Positions 25,379 through 38,515 of a stretch of DNA of 40,164 bases are shown here, piece by piece (the stretch's first letter is position 1; the number at the start of each line of letters is the position of its first letter). Source of the stretch: Deltaproteobacteria bacterium (GTDB lineage: Bacteria > Desulfobacterota > DSM-4660 > Desulfatiglandales > HGW-15); the NCBI GenBank assembly GCA_016932115.1, contig JAFGDM010000171.1, forward strand, positions 1 to 40,164, read 5' to 3'. A model generated the notes under the pieces. It had not been told where the DNA came from. It worked only from the letters and a program-made list of their open reading frames with translations, and made no database searches. The position numbers were made by a program, and so were the translations under genes.

Positions 25379-26914
25379 ATGGCGAATGAACTGATTATCA
25401 ATGCAAGACCCCATGAAACCAGAGTGGCTCTGGTGGAAAACGGTGTGGTTGTTGAGCTTCATATTGAGCGCAAAACCGGGCAGGAACTTATGGGAAACAT
25501 CTATCGGGGTAGAATTGTGAGGGTTCTGCCCGGCATGCAGGCTGCTTTTGTTGACATCGGGCTTGATCGCAGTGCCTTTCTCTACGTTACAGACGTTCAT
25601 CATGATATTACGGAACTGGAACGAATGATGATGCGCAATAACCTGGACGAAAAAAGGGAGAAAGGAATGGAAGATCAGGTTGAACCGGTAGAGACCTCGC
25701 TGCCGTCCATTCCCTTCAATATTGAAGACCTTCTGTACGAAGGACAGGATATTATGGTGCAGGTCGCGAAGGAGCCAATGGGGACCAAGGGGGCGCGATT
25801 GACGTGTCATATTTCTTTGCCCGGCAGGCACTTAGTGCTTATGCCTAATGTGGATCATATAGGTGTTTCCCGTCGCATTGAGGATTCCGAGGAAAGGGAG
25901 CGTTTGCGAAGTCTGGCCCAAGAAATCAGGCAGAACAACCTTGGACTGATTGTCAGGACCGCAAGTGAAGGAGCAGAAAAGTCCAAACTAAAATCAGAAA
26001 TGGACTTTCTGGTGAAACTCTGGGGCAATATTCAGGAAAGGATGAACAAGGTCCCGGGGACCGGCCTATTGTACAAGGATCTCGGGATCTGTCTTCGCTC
26101 AGTGCGCGATCTTTTCACAAGAGAGGTGGACAGGTTGGTTATTGATTCCAGGGAGGAGTATAACAAGGTCATGGAATTCATCGAGACCTTTGCGCCCAGC
26201 CTGAAATATTCAATCGAGCTCTACGATGGGGATGACCCGATTTTTGATTTCCACGGAATTGAGATGGAAATCTCTCGTGCTCTTGAGAAAAAGATCTGGC
26301 TTAAATCCGGCGGATCTATCGTGATTGAATTGACCGAAGCCCTGACTGCGATCGACGTCAATACCGGCAGCTACGTGGGCGTGAGAAATCTCGAAGAAAC
26401 GATTTTAAAAACCAATCTTGAAGCGGTTAAGGAGATTGCCTATCAGCTTCGGATGAGAAATCTGGGCGGGATCATTGTGATTGATTTTATTGACATGGAA
26501 AGGAAAACCAATAGGGAACGCGTCTTCAATGCACTTAAAGAAGCCTTGAGCAAAGACAAAGCCAAAACCCATATTCTCAAAATGTCCGAGCTTGGCCTGA
26601 TAGAGATGACGAGGAAGAGGACTCGGGAAAATCTTAGCCGATTGTTGAGTGAACCCTGCTTCTATTGTATGGGAAAAGGGTCCCTCAAGTCCGGGAAAAC
26701 CATTTGTTATGAACTTCTCAGGGATATTGAAAGGGAGACAAGGGCCACGGCGAATTCAGAGGATATCCGGGTAAACGTGCATCCGGAGATTGCCCGTGTT
26801 TTAAAGGAAGAAGAGCAGGAATCAGTTGTGGATCTGGAAAGGCGCATCAGCAGGCGCATTACGATTTATGAAAAGGAAGGGCTTCATCTTGAACAGTATA
26901 CGATTCAAATTTGA
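25379..26914 (+). CDS. rng: Ribonuclease G
   Basis: Endoribonuclease of the RNase E/G family, matures the 5' end of 16S rRNA and cuts mRNAs. The 511-residue protein has an S1 RNA-binding region at about 35-125 (IYRGRIVRVLPGMQAAFVDIGLDRSAFLYV), catalytic Asp326 in AIDVNTGS and Asp369 in VIDFIDM, and the zinc-link CFYC (Cys427, Cys430). No long C-terminal scaffold is present, which favours RNase G over RNase E. ATG preceded by GAAGGG. Confidence 0.94.
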   Translation: MANELIINARPHETRVALVENGVVVELHIERKTGQELMGNIYRGRIVRVLPGMQAAFVDIGLDRSAFLYVTDVHHDITELERMMMRNNLDEKREKGMEDQVEPVETSLPSIPFNIEDLLYEGQDIMVQVAKEPMGTKGARLTCHISLPGRHLVLMPNVDHIGVSRRIEDSEERERLRSLAQEIRQNNLGLIVRTASEGAEKSKLKSEMDFLVKLWGNIQERMNKVPGTGLLYKDLGICLRSVRDLFTREVDRLVIDSREEYNKVMEFIETFAPSLKYSIELYDGDDPIFDFHGIEMEISRALEKKIWLKSGGSIVIELTEALTAIDVNTGSYVGVRNLEETILKTNLEAVKEIAYQLRMRNLGGIIVIDFIDMERKTNRERVFNALKEALSKDKAKTHILKMSELGLIEMTRKRTRENLSRLLSEPCFYCMGKGSLKSGKTICYELLRDIERETRATANSEDIRVNVHPEIARVLKEEEQESVVDLERRISRRITIYEKEGLHLEQYTIQI

Positions 26915-26965
26915 AGGGTTTCATGAGAACTCCTTCCGGGGTGTTGGTATAGACCTTCAGGAAAT

Positions 26966-27055
26966 GATTTTGGCAAGGCTGGAGGGAAGAATTCTCCGGT
27001 GGTGAAATGACGGCAGCGCAAAAGGAATTTCGACCGATAAGCGTGGTTCGAAATC
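26966..27055 (+). repeat. 90-nt dispersed element, copy A
   Basis: Starts with GATTTTGG (26966-26973) and ends with TCGAAATC (27048-27055), separated by exactly 74 nt. The two ends pair over 8 positions using two G-U pairs. The inner part shares CAAG, AAGAA, GGAATT and CGACCGATAAG blocks with copies B and C. It lies 52 nt after rng and 103 nt before the CHASE2 kinase gene, in sense orientation, and is followed by TTTT. The most diverged of the three copies. Confidence 0.75.
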
Positions 27056-27158
27056 TTTTGATGGAAGTCTATGGCAGGTATGCGCAGGACTTAGAGGCCA
27101 AGGTCTATATTGTTTTTTTTATGAACGTTGTATTTGTTTATACCTATTTTAAGCATTT

Positions 27159-29693
27159 ATGTTTAAAAAACGGTTCAATTTAAATTTCCTAATAGGTTTT
27201 TTTCTTGCCTTAGTGTTTTCCTGGCTTAGGTTTCAATCCAACCCATGGATCGAAAAATTAGAATGTTTTTCCTATAAGTGGATGGTACGGCTGACAGCCA
27301 CCGAGCGGCAGGCTGATCAAAGGATCGTTCTCGTCGATATCGATGACACGAGCATTGAACGGATAGGTTCATGGCCCTGGCCGAGATCGAGGCTCGCAGA
27401 GATGATAGATTTTCTTACAGAAAGGGGTGTGAGAGTCATTGGTCTCAACCTTCCCCTGTTTGAAAAAGAGAACACCGAGTCTTTAGACGCAATGCGGTCG
27501 TTTCTGGCAAAATTCGAAGCCTATGCTCTGAGCAAGAAGAATTTAGGTGTTGCAGATTGGGTTAAAGAAAATTTTAAGGAGATGGAGCAACAAATTGATA
27601 AAAGAGGAGTTTTAATTGAAAAAGTACGAAAAGCAAGCAATGTGATATTGCCTGCCTACACCGGGGTGCCGCCCGGGCACAAAGAGTCTTCAGTGGTGTC
27701 GGATACCATCGCGGCTGAAAACGCGGTGACCGAAAATGGTTTTTCTTCGAATTTGATAAGAGAAATTGAAGTGAAAGAATTGCACATTCCCTTCCCGGAA
27801 CTGGCACACATCGCCCTGGGGTTCGGCCATGGAATCGATTCCCCGCCCGGGTTTGGAACGGGGACAACAAGCGCTGCGATTGTCTCCTACCGCGGTTTTT
27901 ACCTCCCTTCTTTCGCCTTGAGGATTGCTGCGGTCTATAACGATTTAGCCGCGGTCAACATCATTGCGGAAGAAAATCGGATTCGAATGAAAGACATTGA
28001 AATTCCCCTGTGGAAAGGGCACCAGATCGTCAAATTTTACCGAGGAGGAGAACGATTTCCCACATACCCCTTTGCGGATCTTCTCCAGGGGAACAATTCA
28101 CCGTCCTTTCAGGGTAAGATCGTTCTTATCGGATTGAATTTGAAAGGAATGCCAAGAATCACAACGCCTCTCTGGGAGTCCGTCTGCCGGAACCGGTTCT
28201 ATGCGTGTGTCCTGGATAATCTCTTAAACCGTTCCTTTGTTTCTCGGCCTCACTTTATGAACGGCGCTGAGAGCTTAGCCATCCTGGTCTTTGGTTCTCT
28301 TTTCGCCTTGTTTTTTTCCGGAATGGGAGAGAAGAGTCGATTGGGCAGCGCGGCAGGCTTCGCGGTTCTCATACTGGGAGCGCAGGCCCTTGTGCTTTTC
28401 CGATTTGATATATGGGTAAAGGGGATATCTCTAGCCGCCGCAATCCTTGCAATATACAGCCTCACGACGCTGCGGAAGTGGTTTGTTTTTCTTCTAGCGG
28501 GCGGGGAATCTGCGGGGACCAACCGGTTGCTGGGTCTTAGCTTCCAGGACCGCGGACTTCCGGATCTTGCCTTTGAAACGTTTCGCAAACTCCCCTTTGA
28601 CGGTGACACAAAGGACCTTATATACAATCTCGGTTTAGAGTATGAACAAAAAAGACTTTTTGGCGAAGCAATTGCCGCTTACGAATATGTAATGAGAGAA
28701 AAGCCTTTCAGAGATGCATCCCTTCGCGTTTCCAAGCTCCGGAAGGCGATTGAATCATCGGGTCTCGGAAACCATGTCAACCCGGTCGTCGGGGGCATCA
28801 CAAATGTCACTTCCTTGGAAGAAGTGAAGAAAATAGGGCGTTATGATATTCTTGAGGTCATCGGGAAGGGGTCGATGGGGCTTGTTTACAAGGCACTGGA
28901 TCCCAAGATAAATCGTCTTCTTGCAATAAAGACAATTCGTTTTTCCGATGAGTTTGATGACGACGTGATCCGGGATATCAAGGAAAGATTTTTTAGAGAA
29001 GCAGAGATCGCAGGCCGACTTTCTCATCCCTCCATTGTGACTATCCATGATCTGGGTGAAGATCAAGATTTGACGTATATGGCCATGGAATATCTTGAAG
29101 GGGAGGATTTGGAAAAGTTTATTTCCAGGAAGAACCTTCTTCCCTTGGAAAAGGTCATCCATATCGCAGCCGGCGTGGCGGAGGCTCTTGATTTTGCTCA
29201 TCGTGCAGATGTCATTCACCGAGACATCAAGCCTGCTAATATAAGGCTTTTGAAGAACGGAGGAGTCAAAGTCACGGATTTCGGCATTGCGCGAGCAATA
29301 TCGTCTTCCAGAACCAAAACCGGCGTCATTTTGGGAACACCGAACTACATGTCACCCGAGCAGATTATGGGGCAGAAAATAGATCCGCGTTCGGATATTT
29401 TTTCCCTTGGAGTTCTCTTTTACCAGTTGTTGGCGGGCGAATTACCTTTTCAGGGTGACAATCTTAGCGGGTTGCTTTATCAGATCACTCAAATCAAGCA
29501 GCCGGCGCTGAAAACGTTTAATCCTAAGCTTCCCCAGGCTTGCGAACAGATCGTCGATAGGGCTCTTGCAAAGAACCCTGATGAGCGGTTCAAGACGGCG
29601 GGTCAGATGGCCAGAATTCTCAAGCTGCTTGCTTCTAAAATTGAGCAGGTGCACAGAAAAAAAGTCGATAAAGGAACCTATATCGGGGCATGA
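27159..29693 (+). CDS. CHASE2-sensor Ser/Thr protein kinase with TPR-like segment
   Basis: An 844-residue transmembrane kinase. Residues 10-25 form a first membrane helix; a CHASE2 domain (VLVDIDDTSIERIGSWPWPRSRLAEMI at its start) is extracytoplasmic to about 365; three hydrophobic segments follow to about 440; a TPR-like helical stretch lies at about 445-530 (LPDLAFETFRKLP, FGEAIAAYEYVMREKP); and a Hanks-type kinase covers about 559-830, with GKGSMGLVYKA, AIKTI, HRDIKPANI at about 686 and DFGIARA at about 706. All catalytic motifs are intact. No clear Shine-Dalgarno at the ATG. Paired with a PP2C phosphatase 30 nt downstream. Confidence 0.92.
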   Translation: MFKKRFNLNFLIGFFLALVFSWLRFQSNPWIEKLECFSYKWMVRLTATERQADQRIVLVDIDDTSIERIGSWPWPRSRLAEMIDFLTERGVRVIGLNLPLFEKENTESLDAMRSFLAKFEAYALSKKNLGVADWVKENFKEMEQQIDKRGVLIEKVRKASNVILPAYTGVPPGHKESSVVSDTIAAENAVTENGFSSNLIREIEVKELHIPFPELAHIALGFGHGIDSPPGFGTGTTSAAIVSYRGFYLPSFALRIAAVYNDLAAVNIIAEENRIRMKDIEIPLWKGHQIVKFYRGGERFPTYPFADLLQGNNSPSFQGKIVLIGLNLKGMPRITTPLWESVCRNRFYACVLDNLLNRSFVSRPHFMNGAESLAILVFGSLFALFFSGMGEKSRLGSAAGFAVLILGAQALVLFRFDIWVKGISLAAAILAIYSLTTLRKWFVFLLAGGESAGTNRLLGLSFQDRGLPDLAFETFRKLPFDGDTKDLIYNLGLEYEQKRLFGEAIAAYEYVMREKPFRDASLRVSKLRKAIESSGLGNHVNPVVGGITNVTSLEEVKKIGRYDILEVIGKGSMGLVYKALDPKINRLLAIKTIRFSDEFDDDVIRDIKERFFREAEIAGRLSHPSIVTIHDLGEDQDLTYMAMEYLEGEDLEKFISRKNLLPLEKVIHIAAGVAEALDFAHRADVIHRDIKPANIRLLKNGGVKVTDFGIARAISSSRTKTGVILGTPNYMSPEQIMGQKIDPRSDIFSLGVLFYQLLAGELPFQGDNLSGLLYQITQIKQPALKTFNPKLPQACEQIVDRALAKNPDERFKTAGQMARILKLLASKIEQVHRKKVDKGTYIGA

Positions 29694-32818: not shown

Positions 32819-34144
32819 TCAATCAAGCCTTTGCCGCTTTTTAAACACTACCCTTATGGGAGTCTTCTGTAAACCGAGATTTTCCTTTAACCTGTTTATC
32901 AAAAACCGCTGGTAAGAAAAATGCACAAGGTCCGGCCTGTTCGCAAAAACCACAAATGTGGGCGGTTTTGTTTCGGCCTGAGTTGCGTAAAAAACTTTGA
33001 AACTCGAATTCTTAACCCTTGGCGGAGGGTGGCTTTCCACAATGTCTCGAACAGCCTTGTTAAGGGAACCGGTGGCAACCCGGAAAGAGAACTGCTTGTA
33101 TAGGTCGACGATGATCAAGGGCAACTTGGGGACCCCGGCGCCCGTAATAGCGGAGAGCCGGAGCTTGGGCGCAAAAGATACGAAATGGAGTTGGCGATCT
33201 ATTTCCTCTTCCAGATGTTTTATTTTTTGTGCATCCTTCTTTACGAGATCCCATTTGTTTAAGGCTAGAATGATGCCTTTCCCTCGCTCGAAGGCGTAAC
33301 CGCAAATGCGTGCGTCTTGTTCGGCAACCCCTGCCGTTGCATCCAGTGTTACTACGGCGATGTGGCATCGGTCCAGACTTTTGAGGGCTTTGATCATAGA
33401 GAATTTTTCAATCTTCTCCTTAACTCGTGCCTTTCTCCTGAGCCCGGCGGTGTCTATAAAGAGGAAAGACTGATCGTTTAGGATACACAAGGTGTCAATA
33501 GCGTCCCGCGTCGTGCCGGGCAGATCGCTTACCACCATCCGCTCAAAACCCAGGATCTTGTTGATGAGAGAAGACTTGCCCACATTGGGTCTTCCTAGGA
33601 TGGCAACCCTGATCGAGTCGTCTTTTTGGTCGGCTGTCTCGATTGGGGGGATGGTGGCGACGATTTCGTCCATCAAGGCTCGTAGACCGTATCCGTGCGC
33701 TGCAGAAACGGCGTGCACTTTCTCCAGCCCGAGGCGATAGAAATCCGTTGCCAGGTTTTCGTGCTCTGGCCCGTCGATTTTGTTGACGGCGAGAAAGACC
33801 GTCTTGCCGGATCGACGGAGATAATCCGCCAGTTCCTCGTCTCCGGGCAGAAGTCCGTCCCGTCCTGAAACCACGAAGACAATTCTGTCAGCTTCATCAA
33901 CGGCTTTGAAAACTTGTGCACGAACCTGTTTGAGGAGTTGTTCCTCATCAGCTTCATCAAAGCCGCCGGTGTCTATCATGATAAATGCCTTATCTCCCCA
34001 GCTTACGGAAGCATGTAAGCGATCACGGGTCACGCCCGGCTGATCATCCACAAGGGCGTACCTCGACCTTGTTATTCGGTTGAAGAGGGTCGATTTGCCG
34101 ACGTTGGGTCGGCCTACGATGGCGATTACCGCTGTTGCTTTCAT
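32819..34144 (-). CDS. der: Ribosome assembly GTPase Der (EngA)
   Basis: A tandem-GTPase required for 50S subunit maturation. The 441-residue protein has a first G domain with GRPNVGKSTLFN at 11-22 and NKID near 118, a second with GRPNVGKSSLIN near 185 and NKWD near 300, and a C-terminal KH-like domain ending in basic KKRQRLD. Length matches the family. It is divergent from pyrG across a 171-bp gap. Confidence 0.97.
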   Translation of the reverse strand: MKATAVIAIVGRPNVGKSTLFNRITRSRYALVDDQPGVTRDRLHASVSWGDKAFIMIDTGGFDEADEEQLLKQVRAQVFKAVDEADRIVFVVSGRDGLLPGDEELADYLRRSGKTVFLAVNKIDGPEHENLATDFYRLGLEKVHAVSAAHGYGLRALMDEIVATIPPIETADQKDDSIRVAILGRPNVGKSSLINKILGFERMVVSDLPGTTRDAIDTLCILNDQSFLFIDTAGLRRKARVKEKIEKFSMIKALKSLDRCHIAVVTLDATAGVAEQDARICGYAFERGKGIILALNKWDLVKKDAQKIKHLEEEIDRQLHFVSFAPKLRLSAITGAGVPKLPLIIVDLYKQFSFRVATGSLNKAVRDIVESHPPPRVKNSSFKVFYATQAETKPPTFVVFANRPDLVHFSYQRFLINRLKENLGLQKTPIRVVFKKRQRLD

Positions 34145-35896: not shown

Positions 35897-35924
35897 AGAC
35901 TTCTTCTGCAGACTTTCAGAAAGT

Positions 35925-36014
35925 GATTTTGGCAAGACCGATGTTAAGAACCCGCGGAGGCTTCCTACCGGTAAGCCGCACAAGGAATTCCGACCGATAA
36001 GGCATTTTAAAATC
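35925..36014 (+). repeat. 90-nt dispersed element, copy B
   Basis: Opens with GATTTTGG (35925-35932) and closes with TTAAAATC (36007-36014), 74 nt apart; the ends pair over 8 positions with two G-U pairs. The inner part contains GCGGAGGCTT and AAGCCGC, which can form an internal hairpin, and CCGACCGATAAGG. ACTTT-CAG-AAAGT precedes the element and TTTTTA follows it. It lies between pyrG and a small zinc-ribbon gene that starts 44 nt downstream. Confidence 0.8.
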
Positions 36015-36058
36015 TTTTTATGGAAATCTTTATCTCCCTTAACCAGAGGGGTTTGTAT

Positions 36059-36978: not shown

Positions 36979-37220
36979 ACCTTGTCGCCCTCTCTAACCC
37001 TTTCTTTGACCTTAACCCCGATCAAATCACCGGCTTTGGCTTTCTCTACGGGCTGGTTGTCAAGTTCCATGCTTGCCGCAACATCCGTAAAATCCGTCGT
37101 ATGGCCCTTGAAGCGAAGGGTGTCTCCCCGCTTGATGCCTCCCCCTGTTACTTCAATTGCAGCTACACCGGGCTTAGAAAAAAACTTAATGACCGTTCCC
37201 ACCTGCTGTTCTTCCCCCAT
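36960..37220 (-). CDS. EF-Tu domain 2-like mini-protein
   Basis: An 86-residue single beta-barrel protein resembling domain 2 of translational GTPases: VGTVIKFFSKPGVAAIEVTG, GGIKRGDTLRFKGHTTDF and AKAGDLIGVKVKERVREGD follow the barrel pattern of EF-Tu/IF2 domain 2. No GTPase domain is present. Such stand-alone proteins exist in archaea and some bacteria, often near U32 peptidases, with unknown role. AGGAGG precedes the ATG. Upstream in sense orientation lies copy C of the 90-nt element (164 nt away). Confidence 0.8.
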   Translation of the reverse strand: MGEEQQVGTVIKFFSKPGVAAIEVTGGGIKRGDTLRFKGHTTDFTDVAASMELDNQPVEKAKAGDLIGVKVKERVREGDKVYEVVD

Positions 37221-37384
37221 GGTTCTATCCTCCTTTTGGGTTCCGAGTGCCGTTCAGCAAGATCGATTTCTGTGTATCGAATTTCAGGCCTGGTGTCAAT
37301 AGTCATTCCTGAATCTTTACCGGTTGAATACAGTTGCCAAGGACCGTATGATATATTTTAATATGTGCTATACTTTTATAAAAA

Positions 37385-37474
37385 GATTTTGGATTGCTTT
37401 ATCGATCGGGATTTTTTGTGCGGGTCATTGGTGGTAAGCCTCCGCAGGTTCCTCCCGCCGGTCTTGCCAAAATC
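37385..37474 (-). repeat. 90-nt dispersed element, copy C
   Basis: Minus strand: GATTTTGG (37474-37467) and CCAAAATC (37392-37385) are perfect complements 74 nt apart. The inner 74 nt align with copy B without gaps; shared blocks include CAAGACCG, GCGGAGGCTT, CCGCACA and CGATAA. As in copy B, ACTTT-CAA-AAAGT precedes it and TTTTTATA follows. It reads toward the EF-Tu-like gene and away from the DisA_N gene. Confidence 0.8.
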
Positions 37475-37522
37475 ACTTTTTGAAAGTCTGTAGCGCACTG
37501 TGAAAGGAAGGTGGAGCTGCCG

Positions 37523-38515
37523 ATGAAAAGCAACGGCAAGAAAGATGACAACAAGCCCTCTGAGAAAACGCTGAAAAAGGCGAGGGCTCCGGAGAAAACA
37601 CAGGATAAGATGGCACCTTCGCGATGGACGAACATCGTGGTCAAGGAAGCGATCCTCATTGCAAAGAAGATTGGGGCAGATATTCTTCTTTTTTATATGG
37701 ACAGCACAAAAGACCTTACGCCTTTTGAAAAGGTCCGGAGCGAAATGAAACTCATCCTTCTCACAAAGCGAAAGGAGTGCTTTGAAAAATCCTCGGATCT
37801 TGACATCCAAGCGGTCTTGCTGCCCGATGTGCAGCTTAGCAGGGTCGGTTACCTTAAGATCGGTATTCTCTCGGCTATTTCAAAAGGGCTTCTCAAAAGC
37901 GGAGATGTCATCGTTTGTGTGGGCGGAGTGCCGGAACAGGGGTTCATGGATACCATCATGCTTATCGAGGTTAGCCTGGAATCCGAGCTTTTCAGCAGTG
38001 GGGTCAAGGATTCCTTCCCTCCGGAGATGAGACCTGAAGTATTTTTGACACTTCTAGGGATTGTTTTGGAACTGGCCTATGAGGGCAGGGAGGGAAAACC
38101 GGTCGGATCGATATTAGTGCTGGGCGATCACGAAAAGGTCCTTTCCATGTCGACCCAGCTCGTGTTTAATCCTTTCAAAGGTCACCCGGAAGAGGCCTTG
38201 AACATAAATCAACCCCAGCTCAAGGAAAGCCTGAAAGAGTTTTCCTCGATTGACGGCGCCTTTGTGATCAGAGAGGATGGAGTAGTTCTCGCGGCAGGGA
38301 GATACTTGAATGCGGCCTACCACGGGGAGGCGCTTCCTCAGGGACTGGGGACGAGACACACGGCTGCTGCCGCTATTACCCAAGTAACCGATTCTGTGGC
38401 CTTTGTCATTTCCGAATCTACCGGTAGAGTGACGATTTTTAGAGGGGGTAAGATATTGACCGTGATAGAAAAAGCGCCTCCGTCACTTTCTGCGAAAGCT
38501 GCGCCTATCGCATGA
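37523..38515 (+). CDS. DisA_N (diadenylate cyclase-like) protein with N-terminal alpha/beta domain
   Basis: About 330 residues. The C-terminal part (about 190-315) is a DisA_N/DAC domain with the DGA motif (Asp244 in IDGAFVIREDGVVLAAGRYL) and GTRHTAAAAIT at about 276-286; active cyclases usually carry RHR, so the third position is Thr here. If active it would make c-di-AMP from two ATP. The N-terminal domain (about 30-175, KEAILIAKKIGADILLFY, VIVCVGGVPEQG) resembles the pyruvate kinase C-terminal fold seen in some archaeal-type cyclases. A Lys-rich disordered start precedes it. I start at ATG 37523 behind GGTGGAG; GTG 37511 is an alternative. Confidence 0.82.
   Translation: MKSNGKKDDNKPSEKTLKKARAPEKTQDKMAPSRWTNIVVKEAILIAKKIGADILLFYMDSTKDLTPFEKVRSEMKLILLTKRKECFEKSSDLDIQAVLLPDVQLSRVGYLKIGILSAISKGLLKSGDVIVCVGGVPEQGFMDTIMLIEVSLESELFSSGVKDSFPPEMRPEVFLTLLGIVLELAYEGREGKPVGSILVLGDHEKVLSMSTQLVFNPFKGHPEEALNINQPQLKESLKEFSSIDGAFVIREDGVVLAAGRYLNAAYHGEALPQGLGTRHTAAAAITQVTDSVAFVISESTGRVTIFRGGKILTVIEKAPPSLSAKAAPIA

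Follow-up and report, generated by a model that had tools for sequence, protein, structure and literature searches.

Repeats of the kind analysed here have been described elsewhere in work on MITEs, REP/TIRtron elements, and mobile structured motifs (PMC10969869, PMC3733652, PMC11109978). For Geobacter metallireducens, Aklujkar et al. (2009; PMC2700814, Fig. S1) depicted "predicted short RNA elements" with the central palindrome GRCGTAGCGCTGCTACGCC, interpreting them as short RNA rather than as mobile DNA; in two species a Geobacter relative is flanked by dapAB and dapL. The window studied here is the whole analysed stretch of 40,164 nucleotides from a Deltaproteobacteria bacterium (contig JAFGDM010000171.1), in which a reading of the sequence, hereafter the original prediction, had proposed a three-copy structured RNA family. 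The Geobacter elements are dispersed and intergenic like the window element, and their palindrome, when reverse-complemented, gives the hairpin of a family that we call C (GGCGTAGCAGCGCTACGCC in locus L188), whose core motifs are common to the window element. The family C core, GCAAGG...GGAGGCGTA..TACGCCGCACAAGG...GAYTGACGCAG, aligns with a related core in the window element (alignment A5). The Geobacter elements differ in their ends (TAGTTTCC...) and in the greater length of their 5' internal segment; the terminal repeats of family C, TAGTTTCC...GGAAACTA, are absent from the window element, which therefore belongs to the same superfamily and a different family.

The three 90-nt copies were found where they had been reported, and within the window the 5' arm (GATTTTGG), the differing 3' arms (TCGAAATC, TTAAAATC, and CCAAAATC), the pairing over all eight arm positions with G-U allowed, and the enclosed length of 74 nt were all confirmed. 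The unit itself is not 90 nt long. When the alignment of genome copies was extended outward, similarity ran from TATAGACTTTCAGAAAATGATTTTGG to CCAAAATCTTTTTATGGAAGTCTATA, delimiting a 126-bp element that is bounded by 26-bp terminal inverted repeats (ends TATAGACTTT..AAGTCTATA) and has no ORF of its own. The full elements occupy positions 26948–27073 (+ strand; copy 1, matched over its whole length by nhmmer and model R1), 35907–36032 (+; copy 2, found by BLAST, nhmmer, and model R1), and 37367–37492 (−; copy 3, found by nhmmer and model R1, with Pfam applied to its neighbours). In copy 2, the left and right terminal inverted repeats at 35907–35932 and 36007–36032 (both +; pattern search and alignment A2) enclose the central hairpin P3 at 35959–35977 (+; A2 stem columns 56–62 with 70–76). 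The 90-nt stretches are the cores of these elements, and each 8-nt arm corresponds to the inner third of a terminal repeat, as in copy 2 at 35925–36014 (+). The T-rich tract that had been seen as a separate feature after the copies is part of the right terminal repeat (CTTTTTATGG) and does not represent a separate terminator.

Many more copies reside in the genome from which the window was taken (the source genome). BLAST with copy 2 identified 22 places, the second copy having E = 1.9e-25, far from chance, and a sequence-only model recovered 22 full or nearly full copies together with three left-half copies. The end pattern, allowing up to three mismatches, matched 19 times in this genome, and its reversed-pattern control matched 0 times. 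The 5' arm, held to be invariant, proved variable once 20 copies were aligned. The original prediction had regarded unpaired arms, a variable inner length, and frequent antisense copies as signs of a plain DNA repeat. Among the 20 copies the inner length ranges from 71 to 76, and closing pairs are broken in 13, all eight being kept in the other seven; each of the three window copies keeps all eight. Copy 3, moreover, is antisense to the genes on both sides. As a separate observation, the half copies break near the middle of the element (positions 43–81), as though severed at the folded core; they lie at C97:5636–5686, C233:5382–5429, and C186:10936–10989 in the source genome, and further ones breaking near the middle were seen at L240, L241, L242, L248, and L251.

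Pairing-preserving changes had been taken to argue for selection on RNA structure, an argument that fails for the source-genome copies; a fold is conserved across element families. In the 24-pair terminal, or closing, stem of the source-genome copies, 82.4% of cells pair compared with 81.7% in shuffled alignments; covariation there scores 0.165 against 0.170 and is thus no higher than in the shuffles. No covariation was found in the inner stem of these copies, and RNAalifold on 21 of them returned no pairs; their central hairpin has a weak covariation excess (17/500 shuffles). Selection on an RNA read from one strand should favour G-U, and since G-U cells (56) and A-C cells (53) are equally frequent among the source-genome copies, these give no sign of such selection. 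For the window copies, MFE z-scores of 0.20, −1.61, and −2.09 are unremarkable. Comparison with Rfam, likewise proposed at the outset, matched no known family for the window element or for loci of families A, B, C, D, and E at either gathering or permissive thresholds. The resident copies drift without selection on RNA structure.

All three copies are intergenic, as originally described. Copy 1 follows an RNase E/G gene that ends at 26914 and precedes a CHASE2 Ser/Thr kinase gene with its start at 27159 (Pfam), and copy 2 begins 11 nt past the stop of pyrG (TIGR00337), the following ORF probably starting at about 36059. Both are in sense orientation between co-directional genes. The claim that every copy is sense to the following gene does not extend to copy 3, which lies antisense to both neighbours (36982–37302, +, and a diadenylate cyclase gene at 37511–38515, +), 19 nt ahead of the latter; the EF-Tu-like gene thought to follow it is probably an EngA/Der-type GTPase gene at 32819–34144 (−), over 3 kb away. 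The product of the gene at 37511–38515 carries DacZ_P and DAC domains, and the gene adjoins a NUDIX gene; DacZ is named for archaea, and its presence in this bacterium may merit attention. With heuristic gene calls, 16 of the 21 source-genome copies run in the direction of the downstream gene and five against it, an excess not repeated in other genomes; in four genomes together, a copy and its downstream gene share a strand in 30 cases and lie on opposite strands in 30. The neighbouring genes are mutually unrelated. Many insertions, intergenic and in both orientations, lie only a few bases from a stop codon, and the TATAG end of the element provides the stop of the gene in some cases. Such a stop was read directly for L128 (1472–1597), and at L120, L121, L123, L127, and L017 the element overlaps the 3' end of a gene by 4 nt. 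One copy (L011:233–357) ends a few bases ahead of the apparent start of a tRNA gene (GGCGGTGTAGCTCAGTCGG). By analogy with ERIC or Correia elements, rng, pyrG, and the diadenylate cyclase gene would be affected only incidentally, if at all.

Of 85 genomes in the order, 26 had matches to model R1, the genus-level search covering the source genome only. In G035, a genome of the order, the element ends match at 82 forward and 83 reverse places, or about 60 per end with longer patterns, from which we estimate 60–80 near-identical copies; about four end pairs were counted in each of the congeners G036 and G037. Mean pairwise identity among copies is 95% in G035, 85% in G064 and G065, and 67% in the source genome, pointing to recent spread in G035 and old insertions in the source genome; the window copies are old, decaying insertions. 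Five sites that carry the element in G064 lack it in the sister species G065 (L122/L138, L124/L142, L131/L150, L128/L162, and L123/L228), as exemplified by L122/L138, where GTCATCTTGTCTCTCC[element]TAATGTTAAGG corresponds to GTCATTTTCGCTCTCCTATGAATATCAAGG, and the net gain at filled sites is about 124 bp. At L133, the G065 orthologue is internally deleted. The element ends are TA/TATA palindromes, for which reason a 2-bp TA duplication and no duplication look alike, and flank statistics over 70 copies, examined for target-site duplication, revealed only this palindromic signal and no longer direct repeat. Amplification in one genome, empty sites in a sister species, and both orientations mark a dispersed mobile repeat, the alternative that the original prediction had named as a plain DNA repeat.

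The conserved core comprises an inner stem, P2, an internal loop, and the hairpin P3. Fifteen family B sequences from 13 genomes gave a consensus fold of −41.8 kcal/mol, and P2 shifts within this family from GGAATCC/GGATTCC to GATTTTC-type/GAAAATC-type arms with pairing retained. The inner stems of family B contain 18 doubly changed cells compared with 5.7 after shuffling (0/500 shuffles) and the superfamily core alignment 36 compared with 14 (0/500), shuffle counts that are not probabilities because related sequences are counted many times. Covariation between lineages is also seen in the terminal stem, where it could result from template-switch correction of a palindrome as well. When the right half of the core served as a search pattern, relatives emerged in Desulfobacteraceae, Syntrophobacterales, and Geobacter; across the families, P2 and P3 vary in a paired fashion, and the aligned cores retain CAAG, the P2–P3 arrangement, and an ACGCAG-type 3' motif. 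The ends are less uniform, with TATAGACTTT-type and TATAGAGTTTC-type terminal ends named for these elements. Family E, with dozens of copies in G036–G038, combines one core with two unlike terminal inverted repeats within one genus: AGAGGCTGTCCGAGAATG at L151:297–428 and L160:1509–1643, and TAGTGTCCATCCAGAAATG at L153 and L156, which were contrasted with the former together with L161 (L153, L156, and L161, about 1491–1631). In these alignments a conserved secondary structure does exist at the level of element families, not of the window copies. Two further variants were observed. In family A elements of 137–138 bp (L129:1484–1621, L132:1485–1622, L134:1589–1725, and L137:1556–1693), a small hairpin of the CCCGCCTGTGGCGGG type replaces the descending arm of the central hairpin. 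A further repeat in the source genome (L068:1601–1752, contig C190), with a hairpin GAGGCGTAC..GTACGCCGCA and ends CGTAAAAAGTC..GACTTTTTACG, is perhaps another branch of the superfamily.

The dispersed copies, their amplification in G035, the empty orthologous sites, the insertion at gene ends in both orientations, and covariation confined to comparisons between lineages lead us to conclude that the repeat is very probably a MITE-like mobile DNA element, non-autonomous and 126 bp long, whose 26-bp terminal inverted repeats flank a conserved foldable core. The original prediction had instead suggested a riboswitch-like or leader RNA of the host, acting in cis and selected at each locus. The eight intact closing pairs of the window copies, the sense position of two of them between co-directional genes and of most source-genome copies, and the dapAB–dapL location of the Geobacter relative (PMC2700814) are what such an RNA might show. 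Counting against the mobile element are the weak signal in the central hairpin, the sense excess in the source genome, the lack of a clear target-site duplication beyond TA/TATA, and the failure to find a transposase with these ends at the loci searched. As to the host RNA, most source-genome copies have lost closing pairs, and they display neither covariation nor a G-U preference, orientation is balanced over four genomes beside unrelated genes, and Rfam matches and notable folding energies are absent, so that a host RNA seems very improbable. Scarcely credible is a multicopy RNA decoy for CsrA (RsmA), to which the GGA motifs had been thought suited: the GGA-containing blocks AGGGA, GGAAC, and GCGGAGG do recur, but they sit in P2 or the internal loop and not in a conserved hairpin loop, vary between families, and belong to decaying copies in both orientations. 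We rejected this candidate on the position of the GGA motifs outside hairpin loops.

Within the mobile interpretation, the element might be REPIN- or TIRtron-like, with a Y1 (HUH) tyrosine transposase recognising the hairpin and moving the DNA in single-stranded form, which we consider rather unlikely. Both the net insertion of near 124 bp with no clear duplication and the conserved foldable core would agree with a Y1 enzyme that acts on folded single strands, RAYT-like genes flanked by long terminal inverted repeats have been published (PMC3733652), and Y1_Tnp genes are present in all four genomes tested. However, the retrieved Y1_Tnp loci of G000, G035, G064, and G065 have no copy or similar core nearby, and only two Y1_Tnp matches occur in G035, the genome richest in copies. 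It also counts against such an enzyme that IS200/IS605 relatives do not usually have long inverted terminal repeats. The parent search, covering two transposase families in draft genomes, found no element copy within about 1.5 kb of Y1_Tnp (PF01797) and DDE_3 (PF13358) loci in four genomes. End patterns revealed no transposase carrying these ends in the draft genomes G000 or G035, and inspection of solitary ends in G035 showed half copies, degenerate partners, or contig ends and no larger element. We use the label "MITE-like" since no parent element was found and a parent can be lost.

For the MITE-like element, a transposase acting in trans would recognise the ends, and the folded core would probably be recognised too, as a cruciform, as single-stranded DNA, or via an RNA copy. 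Selection might keep the fold in active master copies, each inserted copy then drifting, and if masters retain the fold while inserted copies drift, the fold should matter for spreading. The structure thus appears to serve the spread of the element, not host regulation. A bolder proposal, which we hold to be unlikely, is a Desulfobacterota superfamily in which one folded core (GCAAG...P2–P3...ACGCAG) is combined with differing terminal repeats, its fold being selected via transposition and the core recognised independently of the ends as single-stranded DNA or RNA.

The original observation is sound; its interpretation as an RNA regulator is unsupported for the window copies, and the claim of structure holds for the element family. 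The element is ordinary in kind, and the shared folded core of the superfamily is the interesting part. The case shows that a mobile repeat can mimic a riboswitch-like RNA, with real covariation between active lineages while host copies decay, and adding these repeats to repeat and RNA libraries could prevent false calls. It also connects the "predicted short RNA elements" of Geobacter to a wider Desulfobacterota set of mobile folded repeats, in which a shared core with exchangeable ends and the mobilising enzyme pose testable questions.

Among known systems, the MRSC-65-2 motif is a mobile structured repeat with dozens of copies per genome and a single long covarying stem, and its UYCCGG repeat is missing from the window element (PMC11109978); a link to the TTTCCGG ends of family C would be only a guess. 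The bcr1 repeat of the Bacillus cereus group is short, intergenic, and conserved in its predicted fold like the window element (PMC2267715). It differs in length, sequence, and host. It also has a known target duplication, with no clear counterpart in the window element. Chunjie of Geobacter uraniireducens is likewise a multicopy MITE in a Desulfobacterota genome, unlike the window element in its 178–235 bp and direct repeats, as described in the review PMC10969869. ERIC (RU-1) of enterobacteria and the Correia/NEMIS elements of Neisseria are long imperfect palindromes, intergenic, multicopy, and foldable like the window element, and ERIC, at 127 bp, is close to its 126 bp (PMC10969869, PMC2267715); belonging to other phyla and with no sequence relation seen, they resemble it in kind.
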